Part shown: positions 3,818 through 31,994 of the stretch, piece after piece
Numbering within the stretch: position 1 is the first letter of the stretch
How the letters are laid out: the number at the start of each line of letters is the position of its first letter
Origin: Planctomycetota bacterium
Lineage (GTDB): Bacteria > Planctomycetota > Phycisphaerae > UBA1845
NCBI GenBank assembly: GCA_024280855.1
Contig: JAJRPG010000094.1
Coordinates: forward strand, 19,321-83,320
Reading direction: 5' to 3'
DNA length: 64,000 bases
Notes under the pieces: generated by a model
The model's database searches: none
Told to the model about the DNA's origin: nothing
What the model saw: only the letters and a program-made list of their open reading frames with translations
Program-made: the position numbers and the translations under genes

Positions 3818-4447
3818 ATGCCATCCGATACGAAATCATGTAACCAGCCCAGTGATGACTTCCTTATCCGCGCGGTGATAAGCGGAGACGCAGCTGCGTT
3901 GCGGGAGCTTATGGATCGATACGATCGGCTGGTGCGGTATTGTGTGTTTCGCGTGTCGAAGAGCCGTTGTCAGGCTGATCCGCATTGGCTTGACGCCATA
4001 GCCTCAGAGGTGTGGTCTGGTTTTGTGGAGCGATGCAAGGCTAAATCAGATGAGTCGGTAAATTCTGTATCGGCTTTGCTTTCGCGGATGGCTAGGAACC
4101 GCAGTATCTCAGCGTTGCGGAGTGCGACCGGAAACGAATCGACACAATCTTTAGATTCAGAAACTAACGCACTCGATCAAACCCTATCAGCTGACGAAGA
4201 CCTTCAGCCAAGCGAAGTTGCTGAGCGGCTGGAACTTCTGGAAATTCTACGAGGCAGCTTATCGGACCTTGATGATGCAGACCGAAGCATATGCGATGAG
4301 CTTGGGCTAATCATGGAACGGCGATGGAAAGAGGCTTCAGGACGTCTGGAAATGAGTGAATCTACCCTGCGGTCACGCTGGAAAGGCATTTTGGGCCAGT
4401 TGAAGCGGACGATATCACGAAAAACTGGAGAAAACTTCGCGCCATAG
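3818..4447 (+). CDS. ECF-like RNA polymerase sigma factor
   Basis: 209 residues with region 2-like N-terminal helices (DDFLIRAVISGDAAALRELMDRYDRLVRYCVFR), a variable acidic linker, and a region 4-like C-terminal helix-turn-helix (RWKEASGRLEMSESTLRSRWK). Planctomycetes carry many divergent ECF sigma factors of this layout. Region 2 is followed by a segment rich in W and E (EVWSGFVERC), as in sigma-70 region 2.4. The next gene downstream encodes a small single-pass membrane protein, an arrangement typical of a sigma/anti-sigma pair, although the partner has no recognised anti-sigma domain. Target promoters cannot be predicted. Confidence 0.7.
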   Translation: MPSDTKSCNQPSDDFLIRAVISGDAAALRELMDRYDRLVRYCVFRVSKSRCQADPHWLDAIASEVWSGFVERCKAKSDESVNSVSALLSRMARNRSISALRSATGNESTQSLDSETNALDQTLSADEDLQPSEVAERLELLEILRGSLSDLDDADRSICDELGLIMERRWKEASGRLEMSESTLRSRWKGILGQLKRTISRKTGENFAP

Positions 4448-4513
4448 GCCAAGAGCGGCGACTTATAGTGTATAAGACGAGGTGCGGTTTGGGACAGCAT
4501 GGGAATTGGTGAT

Positions 4514-4972
4514 ATGTCAAAATCTGAACATAAACATGAGCTGCTAGAACAGGCGATCGCTGAGCTTGTCGAAGTCGAGCAGGCGGGCGTTTTTCGTCCG
4601 ACACGGCTGGATGAACGCGGGTTGCTGATGGATGCTCAGACGGTGGCTAAGCCTGCTTGGTTGAAGTGGGGCAAGCACTGGGCGGCGCTAGCTGCGATGG
4701 TGGGCATCTCTGTTGTTGTTTGGTCCGTGATGTTCAAGATGCAGTTCGATCAAATCAACTCCGGTAGAAATCAATCGGTCGTAACGAATTCTCCCGATGG
4801 CCGAGCGCCGAATAGTGGTTGCAGCGGCGATTTTCTTAATTGCTTTAACGGGCCTACGAAGTTGGCGATGGTTAGCTGCCAAACATTTGATTACGACCTT
4901 GATGGCGATATCGACATGCTTGATATGCAAACCTATCAGCAAAACTGCCAGGGACTAAGACGCTTGCCTTAG
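4514..4972 (+). CDS. Small single-pass membrane protein with dockerin-like C-terminus, possible sigma regulator
   Basis: The start is placed at ATG 4514 (MSKSEHKHELL) rather than 4499. About 55 cytoplasmic residues precede one membrane segment (AALAAMVGISVVVWSVMF), so the N-terminus could contact the sigma factor encoded 66 bases upstream. Outside, after a spacer rich in N, S and G, it ends in DYDLDGDIDMLDMQTYQQNC, a calcium-loop segment of the dockerin or planctomycetal DLDGDGDVD type with a terminal Cys. The topology fits an anti-sigma or signal-transmitting partner, but no zinc anti-sigma motif is visible, so this role is inferred from position only. Confidence 0.55.
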   Translation: MSKSEHKHELLEQAIAELVEVEQAGVFRPTRLDERGLLMDAQTVAKPAWLKWGKHWAALAAMVGISVVVWSVMFKMQFDQINSGRNQSVVTNSPDGRAPNSGCSGDFLNCFNGPTKLAMVSCQTFDYDLDGDIDMLDMQTYQQNCQGLRRLP

Positions 4973-17231: not shown

Positions 17232-18365
17232 ATGAATTGGCTAAGATTATCGCTAATAAGTGCAACTATGCTCTTCGCCTGTGTGCAACCCACTCGTGGG
17301 CAAATCCCGCCTTGGCCAATCACAACCGCTACCACCATCGACAATGCTTTAGCTTACCTCGCTACAGGTTCCGCGGCTGACGGCGGCTGGCAGGCGTTTG
17401 GGCGATCTCACCCGGCTATCTCCGCGCTTGTTCTCAAAGCATTATTACAAGACAAAAATTACGGCCCACAGCACCCCGTCGTGAAGCGAGGGTTGGGTTT
17501 TATCATGCGATTCGTCCAAAGCGACGGCGGTATTTATGTCCCTGGCGAGGGCATGCGAAACTACCACACCAGTGTCTGCCTGCTGGCATTGTCAGCTACG
17601 AAGGATGCCCAATATGAAAAGACCATTCTTAACGCTCAGCGATTCTTAAAGAAATTACAATGGGACGAAGCCGAAGATCACGATCCATCAAGCAGTTGGT
17701 ACGGCGGGCAAGGTTATGGTAAACACAAAAGACCCGACCTATCCAACACTCAACTAATGTTAGAAGCTTTGCATCAAAGCGGTTTATCGCACGACGACCC
17801 GGCCTATCATAAAGCATTGGCTTTCGTGTCGCGTTGCCAGATGTTAAGTGAAACCAACGACCAATCTTTCGCCAGAGGAAGTGATGATGGCGGATTCGTT
17901 TATACGCCGGTTGGTCAGGGTGAGTCCAAAGCCGGAACGGAAATTGTTGATGGCAAGCCGCGACTAAGAAGCTACGGCTCTATGACCTACGCAGGCTTTA
18001 AGAGCATGCTATACGCTCAGGTTGGGCGTGATGATGTGCGTATCAAGCGTGCGTTATCTTGGATGCAGAAACATTACACGCTCGATCACAATCCCAACAT
18101 GCCCACCGCTCAGTCCAGGGAAGGCCTATACTATTATTACCATACATTTGCTCGAGCCTTAGATGCTTGGGGAGAAGATGTTTTAGTAGATGCCAAGGGC
18201 AAGTCACATCAATGGCGGCGCGAGTTATGCGAAAAGCTAATCGATTTGCAACGCCCAGACGGAAGCTTCAGCAACCCAGCCGACCGCTGGTTTGAGGGGA
18301 ATCCACATCTAGTTACGGCTTATGCAGTATTAGCCATGCAAACCGCTATAAATGATGTTAAATAA
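17232..18365 (+). CDS. Secreted prenyltransferase/squalene cyclase-fold repeat protein
   Basis: A signal peptide (LRLSLISATMLFACVQPTRG) precedes an all-helical barrel of repeated units with the QW-like pattern of terpenoid cyclase and prenyltransferase folds: DGGWQAFGRSHPAISALVLKA, DGGIYVPGEGMRNYHTSVCL, DLSNTQLMLEAL, QRPDGSFSNPADRWFEG. No DXDD or farnesyltransferase zinc site is evident, and export to the periplasm rules out a normal squalene cyclase role. Such proteins are frequent in Planctomycetota with unknown substrate. GAGATT upstream is a weak ribosome site. The end of the gene abuts an inverted-repeat hairpin (18372-18456). Confidence 0.75.
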   Translation: MNWLRLSLISATMLFACVQPTRGQIPPWPITTATTIDNALAYLATGSAADGGWQAFGRSHPAISALVLKALLQDKNYGPQHPVVKRGLGFIMRFVQSDGGIYVPGEGMRNYHTSVCLLALSATKDAQYEKTILNAQRFLKKLQWDEAEDHDPSSSWYGGQGYGKHKRPDLSNTQLMLEALHQSGLSHDDPAYHKALAFVSRCQMLSETNDQSFARGSDDGGFVYTPVGQGESKAGTEIVDGKPRLRSYGSMTYAGFKSMLYAQVGRDDVRIKRALSWMQKHYTLDHNPNMPTAQSREGLYYYYHTFARALDAWGEDVLVDAKGKSHQWRRELCEKLIDLQRPDGSFSNPADRWFEGNPHLVTAYAVLAMQTAINDVK

Positions 18366-18371
18366 CAGGCT

Positions 18372-18456
18372 GGGTGGCATGCCCAAGCCCCTAGGCGCGG
18401 GCATGGTCAATCGGATGTTAAACATGCTCGCGCCTAGAGGCTTGAGCATGCCACCC
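18372..18456. repeat. Inverted repeat, 34-bp arms, 17-bp loop
   Basis: Left arm 18372-18405 and right arm 18423-18456 pair almost completely (core GGCATGCCCAAGCCCCTAGG against CCTAGAGGCTTGAGCATGCC). It lies a few bases after the stop of the secreted helical-barrel gene, so it could act as a bidirectional terminator, although no T-run follows. Its arm composition resembles the 7259-7418 element, and it is probably another MITE-like palindrome. Confidence 0.7.
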
Positions 18457-18520
18457 GGGACGTCAAAATTTTCGTGTAGCTACTATGCAAGATCAATGGC
18501 ACTGGCCATGCTGTCGAGAT

Positions 18521-18592
18521 TGATGCGTGCAAATAGTCTAGGCAGGTCAACCTTCCGCCTTGGGGGCGAAAGAACGACCATGCCCTACAAGA
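18521..18592. repeat. Half copy of the MITE-like element (copy C)
   Basis: Contains the right half of copies A and B only: AATAGTCTAGGCAGGTCAAC then GAAAGAACGACCATGCCCTA. The left half is missing. It lies upstream of the zinc-ribbon gene array in a 272-base gap that also holds the 18372-18456 palindrome. Confidence 0.6.
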
Positions 18593-18637: not shown

Positions 18638-19213
18638 ATGACAAACATCAGCAGATCAAGACGCATAACCAGAATTCAATTGATGGCGTTGTGTGCGTTT
18701 ACTCTCATCGTTGGCTTTGCCACTTCATCGCTCACGCTATTGGCGGTTCAGATTTTTGTTGGTGGGATTCCTCTTGGTACAGCATATGCAGACATCATTT
18801 TCCAGCAGTTCGCTACAGGACACAATTTGTTCATCTTTGCCCTGATTGGCCTCATTCCGTTTGTCGCACTTCTTATGAAGATGTTATCCATATCTAAGAA
18901 ATACAATGCCCGGAAGTGTTATGCTCTATATCTTAGTGGGCTAATCGGAATACTCGGCTTCATGATTCCATCCCATGTCGATGTGTGGTATCCATTGTAT
19001 GGGCCTGGTCGAATGTCTTCGACAGCAGTAGTTGCATTCATGTTCATACCATTCTGGTGCATTGGTACGATGCTTATTGGCATGTTCGTTGGTCGCCAAA
19101 TTATTAAGATAAAATGGTTTCAAGCATTCCCGGCCGGGCACTGCCAACACTGTGGCTACAACCTCACCGAAAACGTATCCGGAAAATGCTCCGAATGTGG
19201 GAAAGCAATATGA
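18638..19213 (+). CDS. Membrane protein with C-terminal zinc ribbon, array member 1
   Basis: 191 residues with four to five hydrophobic segments (FTLIVGFATSSLTLLAVQIF, LFIFALIGLIPFVALL, LIGILGFMIP, FMFIPFWCIGTMLIGMFVG). They are followed by a short basic link and the ribbon HCQHCGYNLTENVSGKCSEC, four cysteines in two CxxC pairs. TTGGAGGTATT precedes the ATG, the only strong ribosome site of the six-gene set. The stop overlaps the next start (ATGA). Such ribbon tails are common in Planctomycetota and their role is unknown; binding zinc is inferred from the cysteine pattern. Confidence 0.7.
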   Translation: MTNISRSRRITRIQLMALCAFTLIVGFATSSLTLLAVQIFVGGIPLGTAYADIIFQQFATGHNLFIFALIGLIPFVALLMKMLSISKKYNARKCYALYLSGLIGILGFMIPSHVDVWYPLYGPGRMSSTAVVAFMFIPFWCIGTMLIGMFVGRQIIKIKWFQAFPAGHCQHCGYNLTENVSGKCSECGKAI

Positions 19214-19800
19214 TCCGTAAGGCTTTCACTAATTTTCGTAGCATCGCTATCTGGTTTATGACGTTAATTTTATGTCTATCGGCGATGGCGGCGTTGGTTG
19301 GGGGGTTCTATCCTCTTGGTTTAACTTTGGTGCAAGATGGTGTTAGTGAAACTTACGTCGGGCTTCGTGCAGAATCAGGTGCAACGGGTTTGTTCATACA
19401 ATTTGTCACAGACCTCCCACAAGATTCTGAAAAAAACACGGTACTAATGATTGGTGAATCGCTGACATCCAATCCGACAGGTGTTGCATGCTTTGTCAAC
19501 AGAATAGAACCCGTAACATGGGATACGTCGCATGTTGAGAATCGCAGCGGATTCCCATTTTCTCAGTCTTTCGAAACCGCTGATTTTCCCTCTAAAATAG
19601 TGCATGGTATGCGACACACAATCATGGTTAGCATACATTGCATACCATTGATTGCGTGCGCTACGCTTGTAGCATTTTTCGTATGTCGCGGTCCTTGGCG
19701 TCGTTGGAATCGACGTCGTTTGGGCCTTTGTCTTCATTGCGGATACAATCTGACGGGAAATGTGTCCGGCAAATGCTCCGAATGTGGGAAAGCCATATGA
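19210..19800 (+). CDS. Membrane protein with C-terminal zinc ribbon, array member 2
   Basis: The start is the ATG within the ATGA overlap with member 1 (MIRKAFTNF); the longer ORF from 19114 only re-reads member 1. There is one N-terminal membrane helix (IAIWFMTLILCLSAMAALVG), an outside domain of about 110 residues with no family, a second helix (IPLIACATLVAFFV), an RRWNRRR link and the ribbon LCLHCGYNLTGNVSGKCSEC. Topology places the ribbon in the cytoplasm. It ends in ATGA shared with member 3. Confidence 0.65.
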   Translation: MIRKAFTNFRSIAIWFMTLILCLSAMAALVGGFYPLGLTLVQDGVSETYVGLRAESGATGLFIQFVTDLPQDSEKNTVLMIGESLTSNPTGVACFVNRIEPVTWDTSHVENRSGFPFSQSFETADFPSKIVHGMRHTIMVSIHCIPLIACATLVAFFVCRGPWRRWNRRRLGLCLHCGYNLTGNVSGKCSECGKAI

Positions 19801-20360
19801 TCCGCAAGGCAATTGTCGCCATCTTATTTACGGCAAGTCTTATGGTTTGTTTCTGTTGGGCCACGAGTTATGACAACGTGACTCGTCAGAATTGGCCACA
19901 AGGATTGGACTCTTATACTTATTACCCTAATCCGCAAAAATGCTTCTATCTCACTTCATTGCGGGGATGGGTGAGAGTTGGCAAAATTCAGATGAATAAG
20001 CCGTTCAGAGTCCCGTCGGCCAACGATCGAGACGGTTGGATGTGGTTCGGGTTACGTACGTTTCCAGATCCTGACCTAAGGAGTACTAGATTTGGCTCAG
20101 TGATCTTTAGTCACTGCGGCGGTTTGTGGTATACTTTTGGGGGCCCCTTTGCGTCGGGCACTATTAGTGCCATCTCTGTGCCGCATTGGGCATTGTTCAT
20201 TATTCTGATCGCATACCCAGCCACCGCGTGTACCTGCGGATTGTTGCGACGAAGGCGACGACTTCGAAAGCATCTATGTCGTAACTGCGGCTACAATCTC
20301 ACCGGCAACGTATCCGGCAAATGCTCCGAATGTGGCCAACTAATCTCGGAGGAGGTATGA
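19797..20360 (+). CDS. Membrane protein with C-terminal zinc ribbon, array member 3
   Basis: It starts MIRKAIVAILFTASLMVCF at the ATGA junction, almost the same N-terminal signature (MIRKA) as member 2. Helix, outside domain, helix (WALFIILIAYPATACTCGLL), a strongly basic link (RRRRRLRK) and the ribbon LCRNCGYNLTGNVSGKCSEC follow in order. The outside domains of members 2 and 3 do not resemble each other by eye, while the ribbons are nearly identical down to the DNA. This suggests repeated conservation or gene conversion of the 3' ends. Confidence 0.65.
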   Translation: MIRKAIVAILFTASLMVCFCWATSYDNVTRQNWPQGLDSYTYYPNPQKCFYLTSLRGWVRVGKIQMNKPFRVPSANDRDGWMWFGLRTFPDPDLRSTRFGSVIFSHCGGLWYTFGGPFASGTISAISVPHWALFIILIAYPATACTCGLLRRRRRLRKHLCRNCGYNLTGNVSGKCSECGQLISEEV

Positions 20361-20803
20361 CCGTAAAATTTCGAACATTTCGGCGACGAACAAAAGTTGC
20401 GATGGCTCTTTCCATCGTTTTTTTACTTGTCACCGTATTCAGTTTTACGGCAGTTCAGCATTTCTATATTGACCATTACATTATTGGAATAGCGGGTGGT
20501 GGAATCGACTTTTATGATGTGATATTCAAAGTTGGCTCAATTGAGCCAAGCATCAGTTTCACTACTTGGTCAATTAGATGGCTGCCTGAAATTGAGAATA
20601 ATCCATCTTCTAAATTCTATAATTGCACAGCATTTATTCCTGTATGGATGGTTGCGCCGCTTGTATTCATACCAACATACCTGCTATGGCGAAAAGATCG
20701 ACGTACCCCGAAGGGACACTGCAAAAATTGCGGATACAACCTCATCGGCAACGTATCTGGTAAATGCTCCGAATGTGGCCAACCAATCTCGGAGGTGTCA
20801 TGA
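20357..20803 (+). CDS. Membrane protein with C-terminal zinc ribbon, array member 4
   Basis: 148 residues from the ATG at 20357 (MTVKFRTFRRRTKVAMALS); the preceding MLRMWPTNLGG of the ORF track is the ribbon DNA of member 3 in another frame. GGAGG lies a few bases before the ATG. N-terminal basic segment, helix (MALSIVFLLVTVFSF), about 60 outside residues, helix (FIPVWMVAPLVFIPTYLLW), link RKDRRTPKGH, ribbon CKNCGYNLIGNVSGKCSEC. Closest to member 5 in both helices and link, so these two are recent duplicates. Confidence 0.65.
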   Translation: MTVKFRTFRRRTKVAMALSIVFLLVTVFSFTAVQHFYIDHYIIGIAGGGIDFYDVIFKVGSIEPSISFTTWSIRWLPEIENNPSSKFYNCTAFIPVWMVAPLVFIPTYLLWRKDRRTPKGHCKNCGYNLIGNVSGKCSECGQPISEVS

Positions 20804-21234
20804 CAGCAACACGCAGATCACTTAGGTTGCGTACGAAAATTGCACTGATACTATCTGCTGTGTTAGTACTCATTACCGTAACAAGCTTCACGACAACCAT
20901 TTATGGCTTATTCGATCATTGCGCAATCACTATTGGATACGGTGGAACTGTTTTCAGTCCGAGGACTGAGGGGAGAAGAAATGGTTTCAAGATTAAGGAG
21001 GCTTCACCAATTATATTTTGGCTGCCATGGATCCAGACCGACACAATTGGTAGCACAAATCCTACGACAAGAATGTTTCTTCCCATGTGGATGATTGCGC
21101 CATTCGTATTCATCCCTACTTTTCTCTTGTGGCGAAAAGATCGACGTACTCCGGAGGGGCACTGCCCAAACTGTGACTACGATTTAACCGGCAACGTATC
21201 CGGCAAATGCTCTGAATGTGGAGTGACTATATGA
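20800..21234 (+). CDS. Membrane protein with C-terminal zinc ribbon, array member 5
   Basis: 144 residues from ATG 20800 (MTATRRSLRLRTKIALILS), again with GGAGG just upstream inside the previous gene's end. It shares with member 4 the N-terminal helix style, the WMIAPFVFIPTFLLWRKDR segment and the position of the ribbon. The ribbon here is CPNCDYDLTGNVSGKCSEC, with CDYD in place of CGYN. The outside part (about residues 40-95) is different. The stop overlaps the next start by ATGA. Confidence 0.65.
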   Translation: MTATRRSLRLRTKIALILSAVLVLITVTSFTTTIYGLFDHCAITIGYGGTVFSPRTEGRRNGFKIKEASPIIFWLPWIQTDTIGSTNPTTRMFLPMWMIAPFVFIPTFLLWRKDRRTPEGHCPNCDYDLTGNVSGKCSECGVTI

Positions 21235-21713
21235 TTCGCAAATTTGCCATTTTTATTCTCTTGCTGTGTGCTGCTGCTACGACATATTTTACCGTTGTTA
21301 GCTTCCACCCACGTTACTTTTATTGTGGGGCAATAACTGAATTTGATACCTTGCAAGCACAAATCAAGTTCGGATCTGTCATGTTAGTATACATGCATAC
21401 CGACACGCCGCGCCCGATGGAAACAAGTATCCACAAATTCCGGACTCAAGACCTACCGGACGATGCATTGAAGGCATCGCTGGAGAATATGATTCTATAT
21501 AAAATCAGGTGGTATCGTCCGACCATCTATGGGAATGGTAAAGGTTTTTCGCATGCAATAATTTTACCGTTTTGGGTTCCATTGGGATTGTTCATGCTCT
21601 ACCCTTCCATCGTATTCATCCATGCTCGACGTCGCCGGCGTAGGCGTCGATTAAAGGGGCTGTGCCTCATCTTAAAAGAAAAGGGGTTTTGCGCATCTTG
21701 CCGATTCTCGTAA
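21231..21713 (+). CDS. Array member 6, zinc ribbon replaced at prophage junction
   Basis: It begins MIRKFAIFILLLCAAATTYF like members 2 and 3, with an outside domain, a second helix (IILPFWVPLGLFMLYPSIVF) and the basic link RRRRRRR. The paralogues then read GLCLHCGYNLTGN; this gene reads GLCL and at once diverges to ILKEKGFCASCRFS and a stop. The break falls at about 21669, which I take as the left junction of the Mu-like prophage. The last 15 codons would therefore be phage DNA and the ribbon is lost. The remainder of a ribbon is not seen beyond the right end of the prophage in this window. Confidence 0.6.
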   Translation: MIRKFAIFILLLCAAATTYFTVVSFHPRYFYCGAITEFDTLQAQIKFGSVMLVYMHTDTPRPMETSIHKFRTQDLPDDALKASLENMILYKIRWYRPTIYGNGKGFSHAIILPFWVPLGLFMLYPSIVFIHARRRRRRRRLKGLCLILKEKGFCASCRFS

Positions 21714-22840: not shown

Positions 22841-24112
22841 TCATAGCGGTTTTCTCGCGCGGGGCTTTGGGCGGTTTAGCTGTTGGTAGAACATTAGCGT
22901 GATGCGTTTTTGGGCTACTGGACTGTCGATGGCTGTGTTGTGGTCTTTGCACCACTGCTCGACCTTGGCTTGGATGTTGTGCGTTTCCGGGCACTGCAAA
23001 TCTGGCCACCACAAGGCGAAGGTTGCTGATGCCTCTTTTCTGGCGTGCTGCTCGCCGCGAGCGGCTCGGAATAGCATGGATCGGTAGTTGCTCTCCAGCT
23101 TGACCATTGCGTCGTGTAGTGAGGCGGCTGGCTCGGCCATGATCGATCCGGGCTGAGCCGCGACCTGGTCGGCGGCGTGGTCGAATCCGATCGATCTCAA
23201 AAACTGGTCGGTGTCTTTTACTAATACCTGTCGGTTCTGGTTGGATGGCGAGGTGACTGGATCGCGGTGCTGGACCTGCTTGGATAATTTGCTGATAGCT
23301 GTCTTGGCAGTGCTGCTGTTGGTGTCGCGTTTACGCGCTTTGGCGGCGGCACGCGAGGCTTGGATGTCGGCACATTTTATCATCTTAAAATACCAATCGG
23401 CATAATCGTACTTGGACCATTTGGCAAAAATCTTGAATGGGTAAATACTGCGGTTGGTGTCGTACTCGTAATAGCATTCGATTGTTTTAAGCACGTCGTC
23501 GATGTTGTATTTTTGGCCATCGGGCTTGAGTAGATTGAGCAGACCTGCGGCGCGTGTCATCATGGGCGTGTCGATGACCTCGCTGTTGTTAATCCGCCAG
23601 GACCACCACATGCAAATCATCATGGCCTCTTTGGCATTGGCCGGATCGACGACTAACAACTTTTTGATCGGCTTAACGTACTTATCTCGCAAGCCGTCGA
23701 TGCCATGAAGCTCGTACATTTTTAGCCATCGGCGAACGCTGCCTGCTTTGCCAATGCGGGCAGCCAAGACCGACTTGGATACGTCAGGGTTGATTTTGAC
23801 CAGGTGTTGATAGCGTTGAACCAAGTCGAGCTTTAGCTTCAACTTTTTGTCGATGGGAACATCGCCGCCTGGCTGCGGTGCTGTTGATCGATAATCGATG
23901 GGCGTGTCCTGACGATTAAACTGAGGCGGAAACTCAACGCGACCTGTTACATGATCGCCATCACGAACGATGTAACAATACATCCCTGCAAATTCAAAAG
24001 TGCCTTGCTGGACCGATGGCCGATCCACTGGCGTGGTTTGAGTCACTGACGTGGTTTGAACGCCGATCGAAGGCGGTTCGATCGGCGTTCGAGTTGGTGT
24101 TGAAGTCGTCAT
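22841..24112 (-). CDS. HTH-containing phage protein, transposase-like DNA-binding region
   Basis: 423 residues. After a Thr/Pro-rich N-terminus there is a helix-turn-helix at about residues 105-155 (DVSKSVLAARIGKAGSVRRW followed by LHGIDGLRDKY), the kind of HTH placed before catalytic domains in many integrases and transposases. No DDE residues follow; instead come Trp/Tyr-rich helices (MMICMWWSWRIN) and a basic, helical C-terminus. It may be a DNA-binding accessory of transposition or replication, but no family is recognised. Confidence 0.5.
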   Translation of the reverse strand: MTTSTPTRTPIEPPSIGVQTTSVTQTTPVDRPSVQQGTFEFAGMYCYIVRDGDHVTGRVEFPPQFNRQDTPIDYRSTAPQPGGDVPIDKKLKLKLDLVQRYQHLVKINPDVSKSVLAARIGKAGSVRRWLKMYELHGIDGLRDKYVKPIKKLLVVDPANAKEAMMICMWWSWRINNSEVIDTPMMTRAAGLLNLLKPDGQKYNIDDVLKTIECYYEYDTNRSIYPFKIFAKWSKYDYADWYFKMIKCADIQASRAAAKARKRDTNSSTAKTAISKLSKQVQHRDPVTSPSNQNRQVLVKDTDQFLRSIGFDHAADQVAAQPGSIMAEPAASLHDAMVKLESNYRSMLFRAARGEQHARKEASATFALWWPDLQCPETHNIQAKVEQWCKDHNTAIDSPVAQKRITLMFYQQLNRPKPRARKPL

Positions 24113-24131: not shown

Positions 24132-24737
24132 CTAGGCCAGTATGGCTTTGTCCGTTTCCTTCTTCATGCGCTTCATGGATTTCTCAAGCATGTTGATGCG
24201 TCGATCGGCTCGTTCAAAATTCTGCGTCATATCGCGTAACGCGCTTTTCAGCCCTTGGTTTATACTTGCGTAAGATTTAACAGTAGCGATTAGATCATCG
24301 ATCGTATCTTCAGGAGACTTCGGTTCTTTAGGCAGTGGAGGCAATGGCGTATCGAGCAATAGTTTCCTTGTGGCCTTGACCCGTTTTTGGCCCAAGACGA
24401 TTTCACCACGCTCGACGTATTCCTTTTCCGTGACACCGGATTCGATGGCTGCGAAAATACGTTGGCGGGTTTCGTTCATGTGTTCGATCAACTCGAAGTT
24501 CTCGTTCATCCATGTTTCGATGGATTTTCCTTCGCTATGGATCATGTCGAGCAGCTTGTTGTGATAATGCTTCTGCATCATCATGATATTCCACGCGAAG
24601 CGATAAGCTGCGCGTCGCACGGCTCGCACGCCGCTCACTAGCTTACGTGTTCCGGTCGCAAGATTGCCCGATTCTTTGAGGGCGTCATGCCACAGATTGT
24701 CGAACTTTGGAACTTGAACTGTTTTCTTGTTGGACAT
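24132..24737 (-). CDS. Helical phage protein (internal start of the longer 24132-25421 frame)
   Basis: ATG 24737 (MSNKKTVQVPKFDNLW) has AAGGAG eight bases upstream, the best ribosome site in the neighbourhood, so it is probably a separate product of 201 residues. It is almost all helical and ends in a coiled-coil-like region (NFERADRRINMLEKSMKRMK). No known domain. The ribosome site sits in a run of nine A residues which keeps the upstream Cys-rich frame open into this gene. With one A fewer, that upstream gene would stop at TAA within the site. Confidence 0.55.
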   Translation of the reverse strand: MSNKKTVQVPKFDNLWHDALKESGNLATGTRKLVSGVRAVRRAAYRFAWNIMMMQKHYHNKLLDMIHSEGKSIETWMNENFELIEHMNETRQRIFAAIESGVTEKEYVERGEIVLGQKRVKATRKLLLDTPLPPLPKEPKSPEDTIDDLIATVKSYASINQGLKSALRDMTQNFERADRRINMLEKSMKRMKKETDKAILA

Positions 24738-25421
24738 TTGAATTACTCCTTTTTTTTTATACCAACCTCTATGCTTTGAACAATAGAACCCTGTTTTGTT
24801 AATCCTGATTTGACTTGGAGATCGTGGACCAGTATCGCAATTACAAATTACGCATTTGGTATTACATGCGCCCTTATTTCTGAGAAAACCGTGACGTTTA
24901 TTTGCGCAGCTTCTGCATCTGTTACCCGACTCCTGATTGATTCTATGGGGTTTCAGCCATCCGAGTGGATGATTGCAATCTTCACAGTAACAAATCCTGC
25001 CACCTTTGTAGCACGGAGCATGTACGCCATGTTGGTGTTTAACGACGCAGGATCGACAGCGATTTCCTGCTTGAAAATTGATCTGGGCAGGTGAAAACCA
25101 TCCGAGAGATTTGTTGCAATCTTTACAATAGACAAATTGCCCGCCTGACCACGATGGGTGTCGCTCACCAATACAAAGCGTAGACGGGATAACCCCCTTG
25201 AGTAAACGGGTTGTTCGTGCATAACAATTTTGGCACATGCCTTTTGCGTAGTGTTTTGTTAATACTGAGCATTCAGGGCATACAATTAGTTTTCGAGCTT
25301 GCCTTATCATAGCGAAATGGCATTTCCGGCAACGCGATGCTTGGGGTTTTTTTCCCCCACCACAATCAGGGCACACGCGTGCTTGCTTAGTCTTCGGTTT
25401 GTCTGTTGTCGAAGCAGTCAT
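24132..25421 (-). CDS. Cys-rich tandem zinc-ribbon protein reading into the downstream ORF
   Basis: From ATG 25421 (MTASTTDKPKTKQARVCPDC) about 228 residues carry successive CxxC modules: CPDC/CRKC, CPEC/CQNC, then two tandem repeats of the form YCKDCNKSLGWFSPAQIN and CYCEDCNHPLGWLKPHRIN, each ending NRCRSC, and a final CVICNCD. Such finger arrays resemble the zinc parts of HNH endonucleases, but no HNH motif was found. As sequenced the frame continues without a stop into the MSNKK gene, giving a 429-residue fusion. Whether the fusion is real depends on the A9 tract at 24750-24758. Confidence 0.5.
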   Translation of the reverse strand: MTASTTDKPKTKQARVCPDCGGGKKPQASRCRKCHFAMIRQARKLIVCPECSVLTKHYAKGMCQNCYARTTRLLKGVIPSTLCIGERHPSWSGGQFVYCKDCNKSLGWFSPAQINFQAGNRCRSCVVKHQHGVHAPCYKGGRICYCEDCNHPLGWLKPHRINQESGNRCRSCANKRHGFLRNKGACNTKCVICNCDTGPRSPSQIRINKTGFYCSKHRGWYKKKGVIQMSNKKTVQVPKFDNLWHDALKESGNLATGTRKLVSGVRAVRRAAYRFAWNIMMMQKHYHNKLLDMIHSEGKSIETWMNENFELIEHMNETRQRIFAAIESGVTEKEYVERGEIVLGQKRVKATRKLLLDTPLPPLPKEPKSPEDTIDDLIATVKSYASINQGLKSALRDMTQNFERADRRINMLEKSMKRMKKETDKAILA

Positions 25422-25422
25422 T

Positions 25423-25743
25423 TTATGAACACGTCGCCTGTAATAAGTAGTAGTCGTATAGATCGACGTCGCCGTCTTTGTCGGCGTCGAATAGTCGCTC
25501 GCAACCCTCTGGCAAATTGGGCGTCCACGGTCCCCATTCACACAGTGGGTTGAATATGTCCTCGCCCGTGGCAGTTCGATCATCAACAAATCCACTCACG
25601 CCTTGCGGGCATTGCCCCGACCTTCCCCATGACGGTGTCATGTTCATGGGCGTGTCAATGATGCGTACATGGACGATGTTGCCAGGGCCATAAATGCACG
25701 TGCCGAATGCGAAAAGTGCTGCGCATAATTTAATCGGTGTCAT
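25423..25743 (-). CDS. Secreted protein with dockerin-like C-terminus encoded in phage early block
   Basis: ATG 25743 (MTPIKLCAALFAFGTC) gives a signal peptide. The mature part is about 85 residues, rich in Gly, Pro and Cys, and ends in FDADKDGDVDLYDYYLLQATC. That ending has the same layout as the chromosomal protein at 4514-4972 (DxDxDGDxDxxD then C near the end), a form typical of planctomycetal secreted proteins. It overlaps recQ (start) and nearly touches the next start (TAAAATG), so it is part of the early operon. It is probably a gene picked up from a host, acting outside the cell in the lysogen. Confidence 0.55.
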   Translation of the reverse strand: MTPIKLCAALFAFGTCIYGPGNIVHVRIIDTPMNMTPSWGRSGQCPQGVSGFVDDRTATGEDIFNPLCEWGPWTPNLPEGCERLFDADKDGDVDLYDYYLLQATCS

Positions 25744-27032
25744 CGGTGTGACCTCAAATTCTCGTAGTAGATACACCTGTCACAGGCGCTGCAAAATTCG
25801 CGGTCATAAGTGCCGCCAAAATGGTGAACCAACTGATGGTGCAAGCATACGCCGCGTTCGCAAAAACTATCCATGTGCGATAGCGCGCAGTTACGAGCAT
25901 TTGTAATGTCGGGGCTAAGATTTTTTTCTAACTCGTCGATCTCGAACAGGCACATCCAATAATGGTAGTCACGTTTGTGGTGGAACATGATGCAGTCGGC
26001 TGGCTCGCCATCACGACCGGCTCGACCAATCTCCTGATGATAAGTCTCGATCGAGGATGGCATACAAGTGTGGACGACATAGCGGACGTCGGGCTTATCG
26101 ACGCCCATGCCGAACGCGATGGTGGCGACGACGATTTTAATCTCATCAGCCATGAAACGATCTTGCACGTCGCGGCGATCGGCATCGTCCATGCCCGCGT
26201 GGTACGCGGCGGCACTGTAGCCTTTAACACGCAAGGCTTCGGCGATGCCTTCGGTCTCGCCACGGGTGGGGCAATAGATGATGCCCGCGTGACCTTTTTG
26301 GCCGGTGTGTGGGTAGACAGCCTCTCGCAAAAGCTGGTCGGCTAAATCCTGACGGAAAATCAACGATAGGTTTAGGTTGGGGCGGTCGAAGTCACCCACA
26401 TATATCGCGGCGGCATCTAAGCCGAGAATGCTTATGATTTCGTTGCGGACCTCTAGCGTGGCGGTGGCAGTGAATGCCGCTATGGTGGCATTGTTATACA
26501 CGACGCGAAGGCGGTTGAGCTTCTGATAATCGGGCCGGAAATCATGGCCCCATTGACTAATGCAATGGGCCTCGTCGATGACGACATAGCCAACTTGGGA
26601 TGGTCCAATCGCCGTGATGAAAGCTGGCGTCAACACGCGCTCTGGCGAAACGTATAAAATGTCTAACAAGCCCTTGCTGGCCTGATCGTAAATCTCGGCG
26701 TGCTGGCGATGGTCCTGGCCGCTGTGCATGTAAGCGGCCTCCATTTCGATCGAGGCGAGCTTGCATATTTGATCTTCCATCAGCGCTTTGAGCGGTGAGA
26801 CAACGATCATCAAACCGCTGGTGTATTTGGCTACGCCTTGAAAGATCAGGCTCTTGCCACTGCCCGTTGGCAGCACCGCGAGCAAATCGCGGTCGTCTTC
26901 GATTAGCGCCTCAATGCACTCATGCTGAAGCGGGCGAAACTCTTTATGGCCCCAGTCGTGCAGGATGCGATCGTAAACCGTTACGCCGGGCCTTGAGCCG
27001 AGCGGGATATCAGATGGGAAGGTGATTGTCAT
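25740..27032 (-). CDS. recQ: RecQ-family ATP-dependent DNA helicase, short form
   Basis: 430 residues. The helicase core is complete: motif 0 at FRPLQHECIEAL, motif I LPTGSGKS, motif II DEAHCISQWGHDFRP, motif III AFTATA, motifs V-VI VVATIAFGMGVDKPDVRYVV and YHQEIGRAGRDG. A RecQ-type zinc segment closes the protein (CERGVC and CSACDRC). The winged-helix (RQC) and HRDC domains of full RecQ are absent. It is a 3'-5' helicase by family. In a transposable phage it might help process Mu-type replication forks or recombination intermediates; this role is inferred from context. Confidence 0.88.
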   Translation of the reverse strand: MTITFPSDIPLGSRPGVTVYDRILHDWGHKEFRPLQHECIEALIEDDRDLLAVLPTGSGKSLIFQGVAKYTSGLMIVVSPLKALMEDQICKLASIEMEAAYMHSGQDHRQHAEIYDQASKGLLDILYVSPERVLTPAFITAIGPSQVGYVVIDEAHCISQWGHDFRPDYQKLNRLRVVYNNATIAAFTATATLEVRNEIISILGLDAAAIYVGDFDRPNLNLSLIFRQDLADQLLREAVYPHTGQKGHAGIIYCPTRGETEGIAEALRVKGYSAAAYHAGMDDADRRDVQDRFMADEIKIVVATIAFGMGVDKPDVRYVVHTCMPSSIETYHQEIGRAGRDGEPADCIMFHHKRDYHYWMCLFEIDELEKNLSPDITNARNCALSHMDSFCERGVCLHHQLVHHFGGTYDREFCSACDRCIYYENLRSHR

Positions 27033-27463
27033 GCAGATGGTTCCTTTCGTTTCAACATGTTCTTGAGGACGCGGATGATTTCACCGGCACGTTTCGAGGT
27101 TTCGATTTGCGATGGTGTGGGAAACCCGAAGTTGTTGAATAGCCATCGCTCGAACGCTGCCTCATCGTCGAAACATTGCGAACCGAGCCGGGCGATCTGC
27201 TGCACCTGGTCATCGGTGCGCATGCGCAATCCTTTGGGCTTGCCCTTGTACGCCGATGGTTTTTTGCCGGGTGGGTTGGCCGGGTCTTTGCCAGATAAAC
27301 GCTTAATCATGTCACTCGCGCCTGCGCTCGAAAGATCGTGCAAGCGAGAGCCTGCCATGTCACGCACCTGGTCAACGGATAAGCCGCGACGACGGGCGGC
27401 GATCATGATCGTCTTACGCTGCAAAGCCGTTGACGAACCGGGATTCGTTTTCAATGATGCCAT
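27029..27463 (-). CDS. Possible GemA/DUF1018-like phage regulatory protein
   Basis: Start at ATG 27463, sharing TGATG with the preceding gene. The pattern of an N-terminal helix pair (LQRKTIMIAARRRGLSVDQV), a SSAGASDMIKRLSG helix, a KPKGLRMRTDDQVQQIARLG middle and a C-terminal helix ending IIRVLKNMLKRK resembles Mu GemA (gp16, DUF1018). GemA sits in the Mu early region and affects host gene expression. The match is by pattern only and could be wrong. It lies just upstream of recQ in the operon with a four-base overlap. Confidence 0.45.
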   Translation of the reverse strand: MASLKTNPGSSTALQRKTIMIAARRRGLSVDQVRDMAGSRLHDLSSAGASDMIKRLSGKDPANPPGKKPSAYKGKPKGLRMRTDDQVQQIARLGSQCFDDEAAFERWLFNNFGFPTPSQIETSKRAGEIIRVLKNMLKRKEPSA

Positions 27464-27654
27464 CAGGTAAAAAGTTTCCTCCATATACGATCGATGATTT
27501 CTGTTCGCTGCTCATTCACGGACAAACCATATTGGCTATGCGCGTAATCCAATTTCATCTTGGCGATGAAATGCCTCTCCGATGAAGTCATCGCTCGACC
27601 TGCGATGGGCTTAGCCTCAAAAATCTGTAATAGTTTGTTGCACGCATCTAACAT
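27463..27654 (-). CDS. Small phage protein, paralogue of the next gene upstream
   Basis: 63 residues. The C-terminal two thirds align with the product of 27665-27853: MTSSERHFIAKMK / MTDWELDFVESAQ, then QYGLSVNEQRTEIIDRIWRK / KFGLQMTPNRLVIITRIWNK. The two genes are ten bases apart and arose by tandem duplication. No known domain; the helical, charged sequence suggests a small DNA or protein-binding early factor. Confidence 0.55.
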   Translation of the reverse strand: MLDACNKLLQIFEAKPIAGRAMTSSERHFIAKMKLDYAHSQYGLSVNEQRTEIIDRIWRKLFT

Positions 27655-28115: not shown

Positions 28116-29261
28116 CTATGTTCCAGTCGCCGCTGTGCGTGCCGAGGTTTGACGCCTGAGATTGACGCGGTCCTGGTCGGTGTGCGTAGGACGCAACTTG
28201 GATTCCACCCACACCAAATCATGAGCCGTTATTTTGACCTTGTCGCCATCGCTAAGACCTTGTTTTTTACGGGCTTTGCGGGCCGCGTTTTTCAATAGCG
28301 ACTTGCAGCGACGTAGCGATCCCTCGCCTATACGGTTGGCGACATCTTGTAGATACTTCACCGCATCGATCGATAGCTTGATTGGTGTACGGTCGTAAAG
28401 CTTTCGGATTTCCTCTACGCTGAACAACGGCTTACCGCCGGTGTAGACATCCTTGCCCTCGGTCAAATGGTGAATCACGTCGTATCGGCTATATAGCTGA
28501 CCATGATCGGGACCGATGGTGGCCACCAACCGATCGTGTAGATCGGCAGTGGCAAATAGCAACACAGGCACGCCGGTCGTATCGTGAATGTCGCGCAAGA
28601 ATTCTAACGCGGAGTCGTTTAGTTTTTGGGCCTCGTCGATTATCAACATGCGATCGCTATCAAGTAATCTATCCATGATGCGCTCGATGCGGGTCATGGA
28701 ACGATGCCCCGCAACTGTTGTGCCGAGCAAGTCAAGCTTTAGAGAAATCGCATGAGCCAATCCACGTGGATGGTGATAGCTATCTATGATGCGCACATAA
28801 ACCGATCCCACGTAATTATGATTGATGGCCTGGGCGCAGCGACTTTTACCAACGCCGGACGGTGCGAGCAACAACCCCATTGTCCTGTTTTCGTGAACCA
28901 ATCGAGCGGCGGCGAGTATGGCTTTGGCTACGCGGGTCTCGACATATTCTTCGTCGATGGACGCAGCCTTGGCACGGGCGTGCTGCTCGATCCGTGCGTT
29001 GAGTGTGCGAATGTATTTGTCGGCGTTCTCACGCCATTTGCGATCCATCAACTCGCGGATCGTGGTGTTGCCTGGCTTGCCAAGCTGCTTCGCCACATCT
29101 TTGGGTTGGATGTTGTTGCGATCAATATACTCGATGAAATTGTTCATCGCCAAGCATCGCTCTTGATCCGTCAATTCGCCGGTATTGGGCAGCGTCCATG
29201 CAGCCATGAGTATTTGATCCTTATCCTGTAGGATGTCTGTTAAGTTGTGTTGATCGGTCAT
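28116..29261 (-). CDS. MuB-like transposition target-selection ATPase
   Basis: AAA+ ATPase of 381 residues. An N-terminal HTH-like region (IQPKDVAKQLGKPGNTTIRE) matches the DNA-binding domain of Mu B. Walker A is LLAPSGVGKS, Walker B is RMLIIDEAQKL, and a sensor-like LLFATADLHDRL follows; the basic C-terminus (KNAARKARKKQG) resembles the B-protein DNA-binding tail. Mu B binds DNA with ATP, selects the target and activates the transposase. It directly follows the transposase gene (four-base overlap), the same A-B order as in Mu. Confidence 0.85.
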   Translation of the reverse strand: MTDQHNLTDILQDKDQILMAAWTLPNTGELTDQERCLAMNNFIEYIDRNNIQPKDVAKQLGKPGNTTIRELMDRKWRENADKYIRTLNARIEQHARAKAASIDEEYVETRVAKAILAAARLVHENRTMGLLLAPSGVGKSRCAQAINHNYVGSVYVRIIDSYHHPRGLAHAISLKLDLLGTTVAGHRSMTRIERIMDRLLDSDRMLIIDEAQKLNDSALEFLRDIHDTTGVPVLLFATADLHDRLVATIGPDHGQLYSRYDVIHHLTEGKDVYTGGKPLFSVEEIRKLYDRTPIKLSIDAVKYLQDVANRIGEGSLRRCKSLLKNAARKARKKQGLSDGDKVKITAHDLVWVESKLRPTHTDQDRVNLRRQTSARTAATGT

Positions 29262-31462
29262 AACAATGACGACAAGTCATCTGACAAGTCGTTGGCGTCA
29301 TCCGTAACCGTTTCCTCATTATCAACGAACAGGTCATCCATGCCCTGGTCTTCCTCGTGATGGTCCCAATTGGTTTCTGGCACTTCGTCTTCAAACAAAT
29401 CTTCCAAGTCGTCGGTGTCGATCGGGACGGGTTTGAACGCCGTTCGATCGGTTCTCGAAACGCTATCGACGCCAAGATGAACGGGCACGATGTTGACGAC
29501 ATTTTTATCGTCGGTGCCGGTTTTCATGACGTGCGTATGCTTCTCGTTGTGTATGTGCATGGCTTCCTGCTCGACGCTGCGAGACTGCGTGATACGATTA
29601 CGCTGCACCTTGTTGGCCTCCTTACGACTGCCCTGAACGCGACGCTGGGCCTCGCGTAAATCGTCTACATGCGTACCGGGCGGTAGCTGTTTGTTGGCCT
29701 CTAGCCGACCAAGCAGGCGGCGGGTTTCGATGTCCAGCACATGCACGTGTTCGCAATGCTCAACATCCAACGCGACCAGCACCTTGCGACCTTTTAAGCT
29801 CTTGAGACAAGCTGCATATTGACCGTACGTCACACTGACGCCTCCGGCTGTTATGGTCACACCGTTGGCCCCGACCTTATACGCCCCGCGCATGTCCATC
29901 ATTAAAAGTAACTGATCTTCGACGGCCTTACGCAATCGAGAGGCGGTGTGCCACACGGCCAGCGGGGCTTGATTATTTAGCCCGCTATGCTCGGTGCGGT
30001 GATAAGTGTCTATGTACTCGCATATGTGCTTACGGGCGTCGTCGAAGCTTGGCACGTTGGCGATGTCCTTACGCAACTCCTCTACATAGTCGGGCTTATA
30101 GTCTGATGATTTGCCGCAATAAGTGGCAAAATCCTTGTCGCACTGATCGTGCATCGTGCCGTACCAACGCTCCTGAATGCCCTTCGACCAAGGCGCGTAC
30201 GGTATGGCGTAGTGGACCTTAATGCCTAACTCTTCGTACAAACCTAGCCAGCGGGCGTCGTTGGCGTCGAGCAAGCCGTCGCTCTTTTTAGCCACCTTTT
30301 CCCAATCGTCACCGTGGGTACGTTTTAGCGCATCCATCTGACGCTTGGTGATACCCGCAAATAGCTTCGATCTAAAATCCTTGCCGTTATCGAGTTTGAT
30401 ATGCTCGCAAATAGCCCAATCCCGAAACGCCATACGCAGTGCCGACATGATGGCATCTTGATGGGGCGACTTACCCAAATGCCAGCCGACGACACAACGC
30501 GATCGGCAGTCCATAATGGTGGTGAGCCACGGGCGGATCGTTTTGCCACGATGTCTTACCCAATAGTCGCAGATGGTGTGATCGGCTACATACCATTCGC
30601 CTGGCTCTACCGTGGTCCAGTCGATGCTTATGAATGACATGTACTTTCGCTGCCAAGATTCTTTGCCCTCACGCATCAAACAGGTCAACGCCAGGTCATC
30701 ACTTTTCTTTAGCCAGAGCTGCGTTGATCGTGCCGACGTGGGCCAGGCCAGGTCGTGCTTTTCGGCGTCGCGCAAGGTGGCGTCGTGACAATACTTGATC
30801 GATCGCCGCTTTTGCGTGTGCCACAAGAAATAGAAGTGTTCGATCGACTCTTCACACCGGCCACTTTGTGGCTCGCTCCCTGACAATCCGTCGTCGCCAC
30901 CACCATCGCCGCTACCGTATTTGGGGATCAACGACTCGACGCCTGCGATGTGACCGCTGGTTGTCATGCGGTTGTAGTCTCGCCACCATGTTTGCAAGCT
31001 ACGCGGCGAAATCTTAAACGGAGCTGGCTCCGCATGTATGGCATCAGCGGAAACTTCGTAGGCGATTTTAATGGCCAAGTGGCCATCTCGATTAAACGAT
31101 AGCCGCTTACGCCATACATGCATCCAATGAGCCTTGCGATAGGCACGCTCGACGTGATGTTGCGGGTAGCTGTGGAGCAAGGACGCTTGGTCTCTGTCGT
31201 CGCGGGTGTTGTTGTTGGGGCAGGTCGATAACCTGGGATCGATGCGGCGATGTAACCACCAACAACACTTGCCCTTACCATTGCGTGGTGGCGCCTTGCG
31301 TGCCCTGCCCTGCTTTTGCAAGTAGCTATTGCACTGCCACGACAACGTGCGTGCGGCTACGCCCATGAGCGACGACGCCTCGTCTATGGGAACCCAGGCG
31401 TCGGCGGCTTTGATGTCGCTGCGCGAGCGAAACGAATCAGATTGTCTGATTGCTATAGCCAT
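29258..31462 (-). CDS. MuA-like DDE transposase
   Basis: 734 residues in the Mu A plan. The N-terminal winged-helix/HTH segment (DAWVPIDEASSLMGVAART) is followed by a HTH-containing middle and the catalytic core. The catalytic residues are visible as WYVADHTICDYWV (D1), IKLDNGKDF (D2) and WSKGIQERWYGTM (E), inside the RNase-H fold. The mu C-terminal beta-barrel and a long acidic tail come after (ETVTDDANDLSDDLSSLL), where Mu A contacts Mu B. The enzyme cuts and joins prophage ends for integration and replicative transposition. Confidence 0.9.
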   Translation of the reverse strand: MAIAIRQSDSFRSRSDIKAADAWVPIDEASSLMGVAARTLSWQCNSYLQKQGRARKAPPRNGKGKCCWWLHRRIDPRLSTCPNNNTRDDRDQASLLHSYPQHHVERAYRKAHWMHVWRKRLSFNRDGHLAIKIAYEVSADAIHAEPAPFKISPRSLQTWWRDYNRMTTSGHIAGVESLIPKYGSGDGGGDDGLSGSEPQSGRCEESIEHFYFLWHTQKRRSIKYCHDATLRDAEKHDLAWPTSARSTQLWLKKSDDLALTCLMREGKESWQRKYMSFISIDWTTVEPGEWYVADHTICDYWVRHRGKTIRPWLTTIMDCRSRCVVGWHLGKSPHQDAIMSALRMAFRDWAICEHIKLDNGKDFRSKLFAGITKRQMDALKRTHGDDWEKVAKKSDGLLDANDARWLGLYEELGIKVHYAIPYAPWSKGIQERWYGTMHDQCDKDFATYCGKSSDYKPDYVEELRKDIANVPSFDDARKHICEYIDTYHRTEHSGLNNQAPLAVWHTASRLRKAVEDQLLLMMDMRGAYKVGANGVTITAGGVSVTYGQYAACLKSLKGRKVLVALDVEHCEHVHVLDIETRRLLGRLEANKQLPPGTHVDDLREAQRRVQGSRKEANKVQRNRITQSRSVEQEAMHIHNEKHTHVMKTGTDDKNVVNIVPVHLGVDSVSRTDRTAFKPVPIDTDDLEDLFEDEVPETNWDHHEEDQGMDDLFVDNEETVTDDANDLSDDLSSLL

Positions 31463-31468
31463 GATTAC

Positions 31469-31732
31469 TTACGCAGCGACTACGCGGGCTTTCTCCATGT
31501 TGGCTAGAAATTTTTCCATCAAGTCCGGTCTTGTGGACCTGCTGTAATTGATCGTGATTTTACGGTGCCATTCGCCTTCAATAATTGCGTACAAAGTTTC
31601 AATCCCTCGCTTGCAAAAATCACAATACAAATAGGTGATGCGTTGGGAGCCGAGATCGTCTACCACAAAATGCTCGCAGTCCACGCAACCGTTGCAGGTG
31701 GGGCAATGTTGGATCGGGGAAAATTCACGCAT
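31469..31732 (-). CDS. Small zinc-finger phage protein
   Basis: 87 residues with CPTCNGCVDCEHF near the N-terminus and YCDFCKRGIE in the middle, four to six cysteines for one zinc ribbon. The remainder is amphipathic. Encoded just before the transposase and overlapping the next upstream gene by eight bases. Possibly a Mu Com-like or early regulatory finger; no family match can be claimed. Confidence 0.5.
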   Translation of the reverse strand: MREFSPIQHCPTCNGCVDCEHFVVDDLGSQRITYLYCDFCKRGIETLYAIIEGEWHRKITINYSRSTRPDLMEKFLANMEKARVVAA

Positions 31733-31994
31733 GAGACAAATCTCCTTGAGATAAATCCCTGTTACGGGATAATTCTCCGTTATGATTTTTGGAGGCTCGA
31801 CAAAAAACGCATAGCTCAGATAAGGTTTGGCGGATACGCACCTCGTCGGAGGCGTCGAATAAAAGTAGCTCTTGTGATTGATGGCGACCGCAGCGGCATG
31901 ACACGATGGTTTTCTTGTGGATCGGTTCGCCGAGCCAACAAGCCAAGAACGCCATCGCCGGTAGCGAGAGACTGAAAATTATGATATCGATCAT
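31725..31994 (-). CDS. Small membrane-anchored Cys-containing phage protein
   Basis: 89 residues. One N-terminal membrane helix (IIIFSLSLPAMAFLACWLG) is followed by a cytoplasmic part with CRCGRH and CVFC, perhaps one zinc site. It overlaps both neighbours by a few bases, so it is translated with the early operon. Function unknown; superinfection exclusion proteins often look like this, but that is only a suggestion. Confidence 0.5.
   Translation of the reverse strand: MIDIIIFSLSLPAMAFLACWLGEPIHKKTIVSCRCGRHQSQELLLFDASDEVRIRQTLSELCVFCRASKNHNGELSRNRDLSQGDLSHA

Follow-up and report, generated by a model that had tools for sequence, protein, structure and literature searches.

Why should a prophage carry, among its early genes, a small protein with an export-like N-terminus and a C-terminus resembling domains of its host? 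The question arises at positions 25423-25743 of the 64,000-nucleotide stretch of planctomycetal DNA analysed here (the window), where an earlier note, made from the sequence alone, had described a secreted dockerin-like protein in a phage early operon and proposed that it might anchor to the host surface or act as a lysogenic conversion factor. The features concerned are these.

4499..4972, plus strand: chromosomal transmembrane protein used for comparison, with the same C-terminal half-dockerin (profile match)
22841..24112, minus strand: phage early protein with a weak HTH match (domain search and prophage comparison)
24132..25421, minus strand: phage protein rich in Cys, with CxxC spacing like that of a zinc ribbon, directly 3′ of the half-dockerin gene (homologues in syntenic prophages)
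25423..25743, minus strand: gene for the probably exported half-dockerin, 106 aa (ORF translation, profile match, codon usage)
25429..25545, minus strand: half-dockerin module, residues 67-105, LCEWGP...GCERLFDADKDGDVDLYDYYLLQATC (profile match)
25453..25488, minus strand: single EF-hand-type calcium loop DADKDGDVDLYD, residues 86-97 (sequence; modelled helix-loop-helix)
25693..25728, minus strand: hydrophobic stretch near the N-terminus (residues 6-17), either signal peptide or anchor (hydropathy; predicted helix)
25752..25755, minus strand: GAGG, likely ribosome-binding site (sequence; eight bases 5′ of the half-dockerin ATG)
25740..27032, minus strand: RecQ-like helicase, operon partner 5′ of the half-dockerin (PF00270, PF00271, PF16124)
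27029..27484, minus strand: GemA-like early protein (phrog_286 E 3.7e-5, weak PF06252)
28116..29261, minus strand: MuB-like transposition ATPase (phrog_296 E 3e-35)
29258..31462, minus strand: MuA-like transposase (phrog_310 E 1.7e-75)

An exported-type protein in a Mu-like early operon

The ORF is a phage gene and not a stray reading frame; the prophage that carries it is Mu-like, and the operon is the early one. It occupies the minus strand, the plus-strand reading of the same positions being interrupted by many stops, and its product runs MTPIKLCAALFAFGTCIYGPGN...CERLFDADKDGDVDLYDYYLLQATCS up to the stop codon. The ATG (25743) overlaps the TGA of the upstream RecQ-like gene in the tetranucleotide ATGA (25740-25743), and the Cys-rich gene starts one base past the half-dockerin stop codon. 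Codon usage is like that of the operon in the gene's own frame only, which scores +0.066 per codon; scores for the five other frames lie between -0.11 and -0.24.

The succession of A, B and GemA, with further small genes after them, is that of Mu (AF083977), although here it is the RecQ-like, half-dockerin and Cys-rich genes that come after GemA. Orientation also differs, in that the early operon of Mu runs inward from the left end whereas here it runs outward to the left prophage end (21.9-33.7 kb), with the late genes (33.7-63.2 kb), including a Mu-type portal and terminase, on the opposite strand. In two genomes of the same genus (G001 and G002), the left flank (about 17.2-18.4 kb, with short matches at 20.7-21.2 kb) and the right flank (63294 to the end of the window) are found on one contig, together spanning ~3 kb in the former and ~5 kb in the latter. 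This adjacency identifies the intervening segment of ~42 kb, half-dockerin gene included, as a mobile insertion.

Several other observations were made nearby. Short stretches at about 18360-18590 recur at dozens of sites across the three same-genus genomes, inverted copies lying near one another; they represent a dispersed repeat family, perhaps of REP- or MITE-like type. Adjoining the insertion, 18638-21713 (plus strand) encodes tandem membrane-protein paralogues, several of them with a CxxCGYNLTGNVSGKCSECG end. Within the prophage, the product of 31725-31994 (minus strand), 5′ of the transposase gene, is likewise strongly hydrophobic at its N-terminus, with a hydropathy of 2.18, and several Cys residues follow the membrane segment.

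The half-dockerin protein probably leaves the cytoplasm. Its best 12-residue hydropathy, 2.25, is the highest among 15 early-region proteins tested. The hydrophobic leader ends around Cys16, where the sequence FGTC does not form a canonical lipobox, the usual consensus being [LVI][ASTVI][GAS]C. An AlphaFold model contains a confident helix at residues 2-17 and a helix-loop-helix at 82-103; mean pLDDT is 60.8, confidence being low except in the leader and the loop, and the middle of the chain is poorly modelled. The best two Foldseek matches of this model are dockerins, at non-significant E values of 6-7. The earlier description is borne out as regards the early-operon setting and the export-like N-terminus.

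Relation of the module to host dockerins

The last ~40 residues of the protein are common to proteins of the same host family. This was assessed with a profile of 76 columns, built from sixteen C-terminal domains of the host and its relatives with the phage half-dockerin left out, and searched against every window ORF of at least 30 aa. The phage ORF was matched with an i-E of 1.5e-11 over columns 35-73 and the chromosomal protein at 4499-4972 with an i-E of 2.3e-10, while the remaining ORFs gave E values of about 2 or worse and no further match. The module consists of C-x-x-G-P, a short spacer, a Cys, the one calcium loop and an exit helix. Pfam, PHROG and NCBIfam searches with the phage protein yielded no meaningful match, nor did an NCBIfam search with the host dockerin-type domains; two of three host-family segments tested nevertheless passed the Dockerin_1 (PF00404) cut-off (E 1.8e-8 and 1.7e-6). 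Since only columns 35-73 align, and since host segments reach Dockerin_1, the phage module corresponds to a dockerin-type domain of which only the second half is present.

Searching the host genome for the C-terminal motif, as the earlier note had suggested, gave 18 occurrences of the DNA form of D-x-D-x-D-G-D-x-D, against none in the backwards control, and 58 module matches with the profile. The latter are mostly two-looped and are carried mostly by long proteins. The likeness to chromosomal proteins that the note had drawn is therefore upheld, at 25423-25743 and at 4499-4972 alike, in the case of the Asp-rich motif, which exceeds chance; for the terminal Cys the agreement is only rough, the phage protein ending in QATCS, the 4499-4972 protein having QQNC eight residues before its end, and most host copies having F at this position. 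Beside the latter gene, 3818-4447 (plus strand) gives a sub-threshold match to sigma-70 region 2 (PF04542, E 4e-4), and the arrangement suggests that the single-pass membrane protein at 4499-4972 could be an anti-sigma factor with a half-dockerin at its outer end.

Comparison with type I dockerins reveals both likeness and difference. The phage loop is of the D-x-D-x-D-G-x-x-D type and is followed by a helix, as in PF00404, and homology is indicated by the presence, in the profile that matched it, of host-family domains passing the PF00404 cut-off. PF00404, however, is a duplicated loop-helix pair, of which the phage protein has one, the second half only; it also has the C-x-x-G-P...C pattern, is phage-borne and lacks a significant Pfam match. 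Because the duplicated loop was looked for and is missing, type I dockerin is not the right assignment for this protein, although it may work like one nonetheless. The host's bipartite domains are closer, their second half aligning end to end with the phage module, but their carriers are mostly long whereas the phage protein has 106 residues and no first half.

Half-dockerins in other phages

Parts of the early operon were found on five further prophage contigs (L059, L060, L109, L110 and L111). The content of the stretch from recQ to the HTH gene varies among prophages, comprising ASCH proteins, a D12 methylase, a lipoprotein-like protein or a half-dockerin. The last occurs in two of the six prophages with this operon, some contigs being partial: the second example, at L110 2099-2398, is a 99-aa hydrophobic-leader protein whose start abuts the preceding ORF, and which matches the profile at E 7.5e-8 and Dockerin_1, just sub-threshold, at 0.0053. 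In addition to the module, it shares with the half-dockerin of the window a short likeness around the leader (FxTCxxGP..HV..DT). By the earlier note's own account, its reading would have fallen had there been neither homologues in any phage or host nor a predicted signal peptide. The module has homologues and the leader is hydrophobic; the first ~60 residues, on the other hand, have no homologue except for this weak match. In the recQ-to-HTH stretch of L111, 2040-3080 (minus strand) encodes a 346-aa lipoprotein-like protein, with similar sequence in L059, for which PHROG and Pfam searches gave no match.

The architecture of leader plus half-module recurs in other phages. Pattern scans of IMG/VR revealed small single-loop proteins with a hydrophobic leader in L096, L090, L147, L168, L094 and L100, and further ones in L149, L095, L083 and L086, although in these last four the match is weak or spans little beyond the loop. 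Their genes belong to several different modules and are not always early: neighbours include portal and methylase genes (L096), a terminase gene, which is overlapped (L168), a tape measure gene, which is preceded (L147), and genes for major head protein (L095), DNA polymerase (L083), primase (L100), integrase (L094) and helicase (L090). Leader hydropathy across all 12 phage half-dockerin proteins ranges from 1.7 to 3.5. A tally made by eye and hand, with the window's own copy counted in, found the first loop absent in 12 phage copies and two loops in about 3 viral-contig copies, as against about 5 and 52, respectively, for chromosomal copies (Fisher p 1.4e-7), a statistic that is indicative only, since copies may be related, the window's copy is included and the classes were assigned by eye. 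From these look-alikes it seems that a host surface-docking tag has been put to use more than once by phages of these bacteria.

A transposase scan of the viral contigs gave no match. Some candidates were set aside. Viral lysozyme-type EF-loop proteins (L084, L098, L148, L154) have the loop without C-x-x-G-P...C. The same is true of a membrane EF-loop family (L082, L085, L087, L088, L091, L093, L097, L099), a near-identical small protein with an N-terminal TM segment followed by FDLDKDGDVDLDDAKVAV, which is present on many IMG/VR contigs and has no dockerin half. The only apparent whole-protein relative among the genome contigs, in Boseongicola (L009), was rejected, the similarity being short and falling in unrelated genomic sequence where it overlaps other reading frames. 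A supposed prophage copy (G008:C140) sits in a protein of ~1060 aa in a chromosomal stretch. No significant match was obtained by tblastn of the half-dockerin against phages, that to phage Boilgate (E 6) being noise.

Possible roles

Beyond the anatomy of the sequence, everything that follows we infer. Our tentative preference is for an early-made envelope protein that uses a host docking module and whose benefit would be superinfection exclusion. The envelope is suggested as its site by the combination of early position, export and host-mimicking tag. The protein would be synthesised soon after infection or induction and exported via Sec; in the oxidising envelope the cysteines of C-x-x-G-P...C may pair and the loop may bind calcium. 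The module would then occupy the host envelope partner of dockerin-tagged proteins, be it a cohesin-like domain or anchoring machinery, and a receptor so altered or masked would lead to superinfection exclusion as the likeliest benefit. Precedent exists in small phage envelope proteins that block receptors, superinfection exclusion being proven for T5 Llp and Rtp45 (PMC9586334, PMC12685063); Llp is periplasmic and lipidated, with a disulphide (PMC9586334). The half-dockerin would work like these lipoproteins without being one of them. It resembles Llp/Cor/Rtp45 as a small phage-encoded, apparently exported protein with a proposed envelope role, but has the noncanonical FGTC and a predicted calcium loop, and PHROG, Pfam and tblastn searches against phages gave no match to that family. 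Counting against the envelope reading are the noncanonical FGTC, the near lack of homologues for the first ~60 residues, the varied and not always early positions of the genes in other phages, the low confidence of most of the model and the non-significant Foldseek matches, and a single loop that may fail to bind cohesin.

The main alternative is a decoy, which would compete with host dockerin-tagged proteins for cohesin-like partners and so strip or remodel the host surface, with no exclusion of other phages. This we consider rather unlikely, despite the 58 module matches in the host genome, the retention of the loop in phage versions that have lost the first half, and two exported host proteins, encoded at G000:C30 near 48157 and G000:C47 near 70526, whose cohesin domain exceeds the Pfam cut-off. 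Both of these putative partners have a single cohesin and look dockerin-bearing themselves, and a single loop may bind too weakly. Anchoring to a host envelope partner, as proposed in the earlier note, is made plausible by the two cohesin proteins; the phage module is only half a dockerin. That note's other proposal, a conversion factor displayed on the lysogen, would suit an exported, prophage-borne protein with a host-like tag, encoded in a slot whose cargo varies between prophages. It has fared less well and now appears distinctly improbable: the position is internal to the early operon, the gene's start overlaps the recQ stop, and a scan for the sigma-70 consensus detected no promoter-like site on its strand from recQ to the half-dockerin gene. 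The early operon of Mu is repressed in lysogens, and by this analogy, with the translational coupling and the missing promoter-like site, the half-dockerin gene should be silent in a lysogen.

A host gene fragment, acquired by the phage and of no function, would explain both the host-type module and its presence in so few of the prophages sharing this operon. We think it scarcely probable, given the intact frame, overlapping start and coding bias, and the recurrence of the layout in phages that are otherwise different. A lysis accessory, for instance one that weakens the envelope or acts like a spanin and is adapted to this host, is very unlikely. It could be a small, exported, Cys-containing protein such as this, and in Mu the interval from Mor to C encodes membrane proteins, with a spanin pair near, but no endolysin or holin was recognised adjacent and no lysis family in the early region, the gene lies between recQ and the Cys-rich early gene, a C-terminal membrane segment is absent and the lipobox is noncanonical.

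Dockerins are known, as are exported proteins of phages; no paper on dockerins in phages was found in literature that took in few subscription journals. A broader proposition, which we regard as improbable at present, is that phages of Planctomycetota (hosts being assigned from the style of their proteins) recurrently encode exported single-loop dockerins as decoys or hijackers of dockerin/cohesin-type surface assembly. If true, these would make up a category of envelope effectors of phages for which we found no description. Dozens of proteins in these bacteria end in a dockerin-like domain, and what such domains bind and serve for is apparently unexplained outside cellulosomes. The reduced module, present more than once in a short exported phage protein, would offer a small and testable probe of host docking, and perhaps also of the control of superinfection by these phages.
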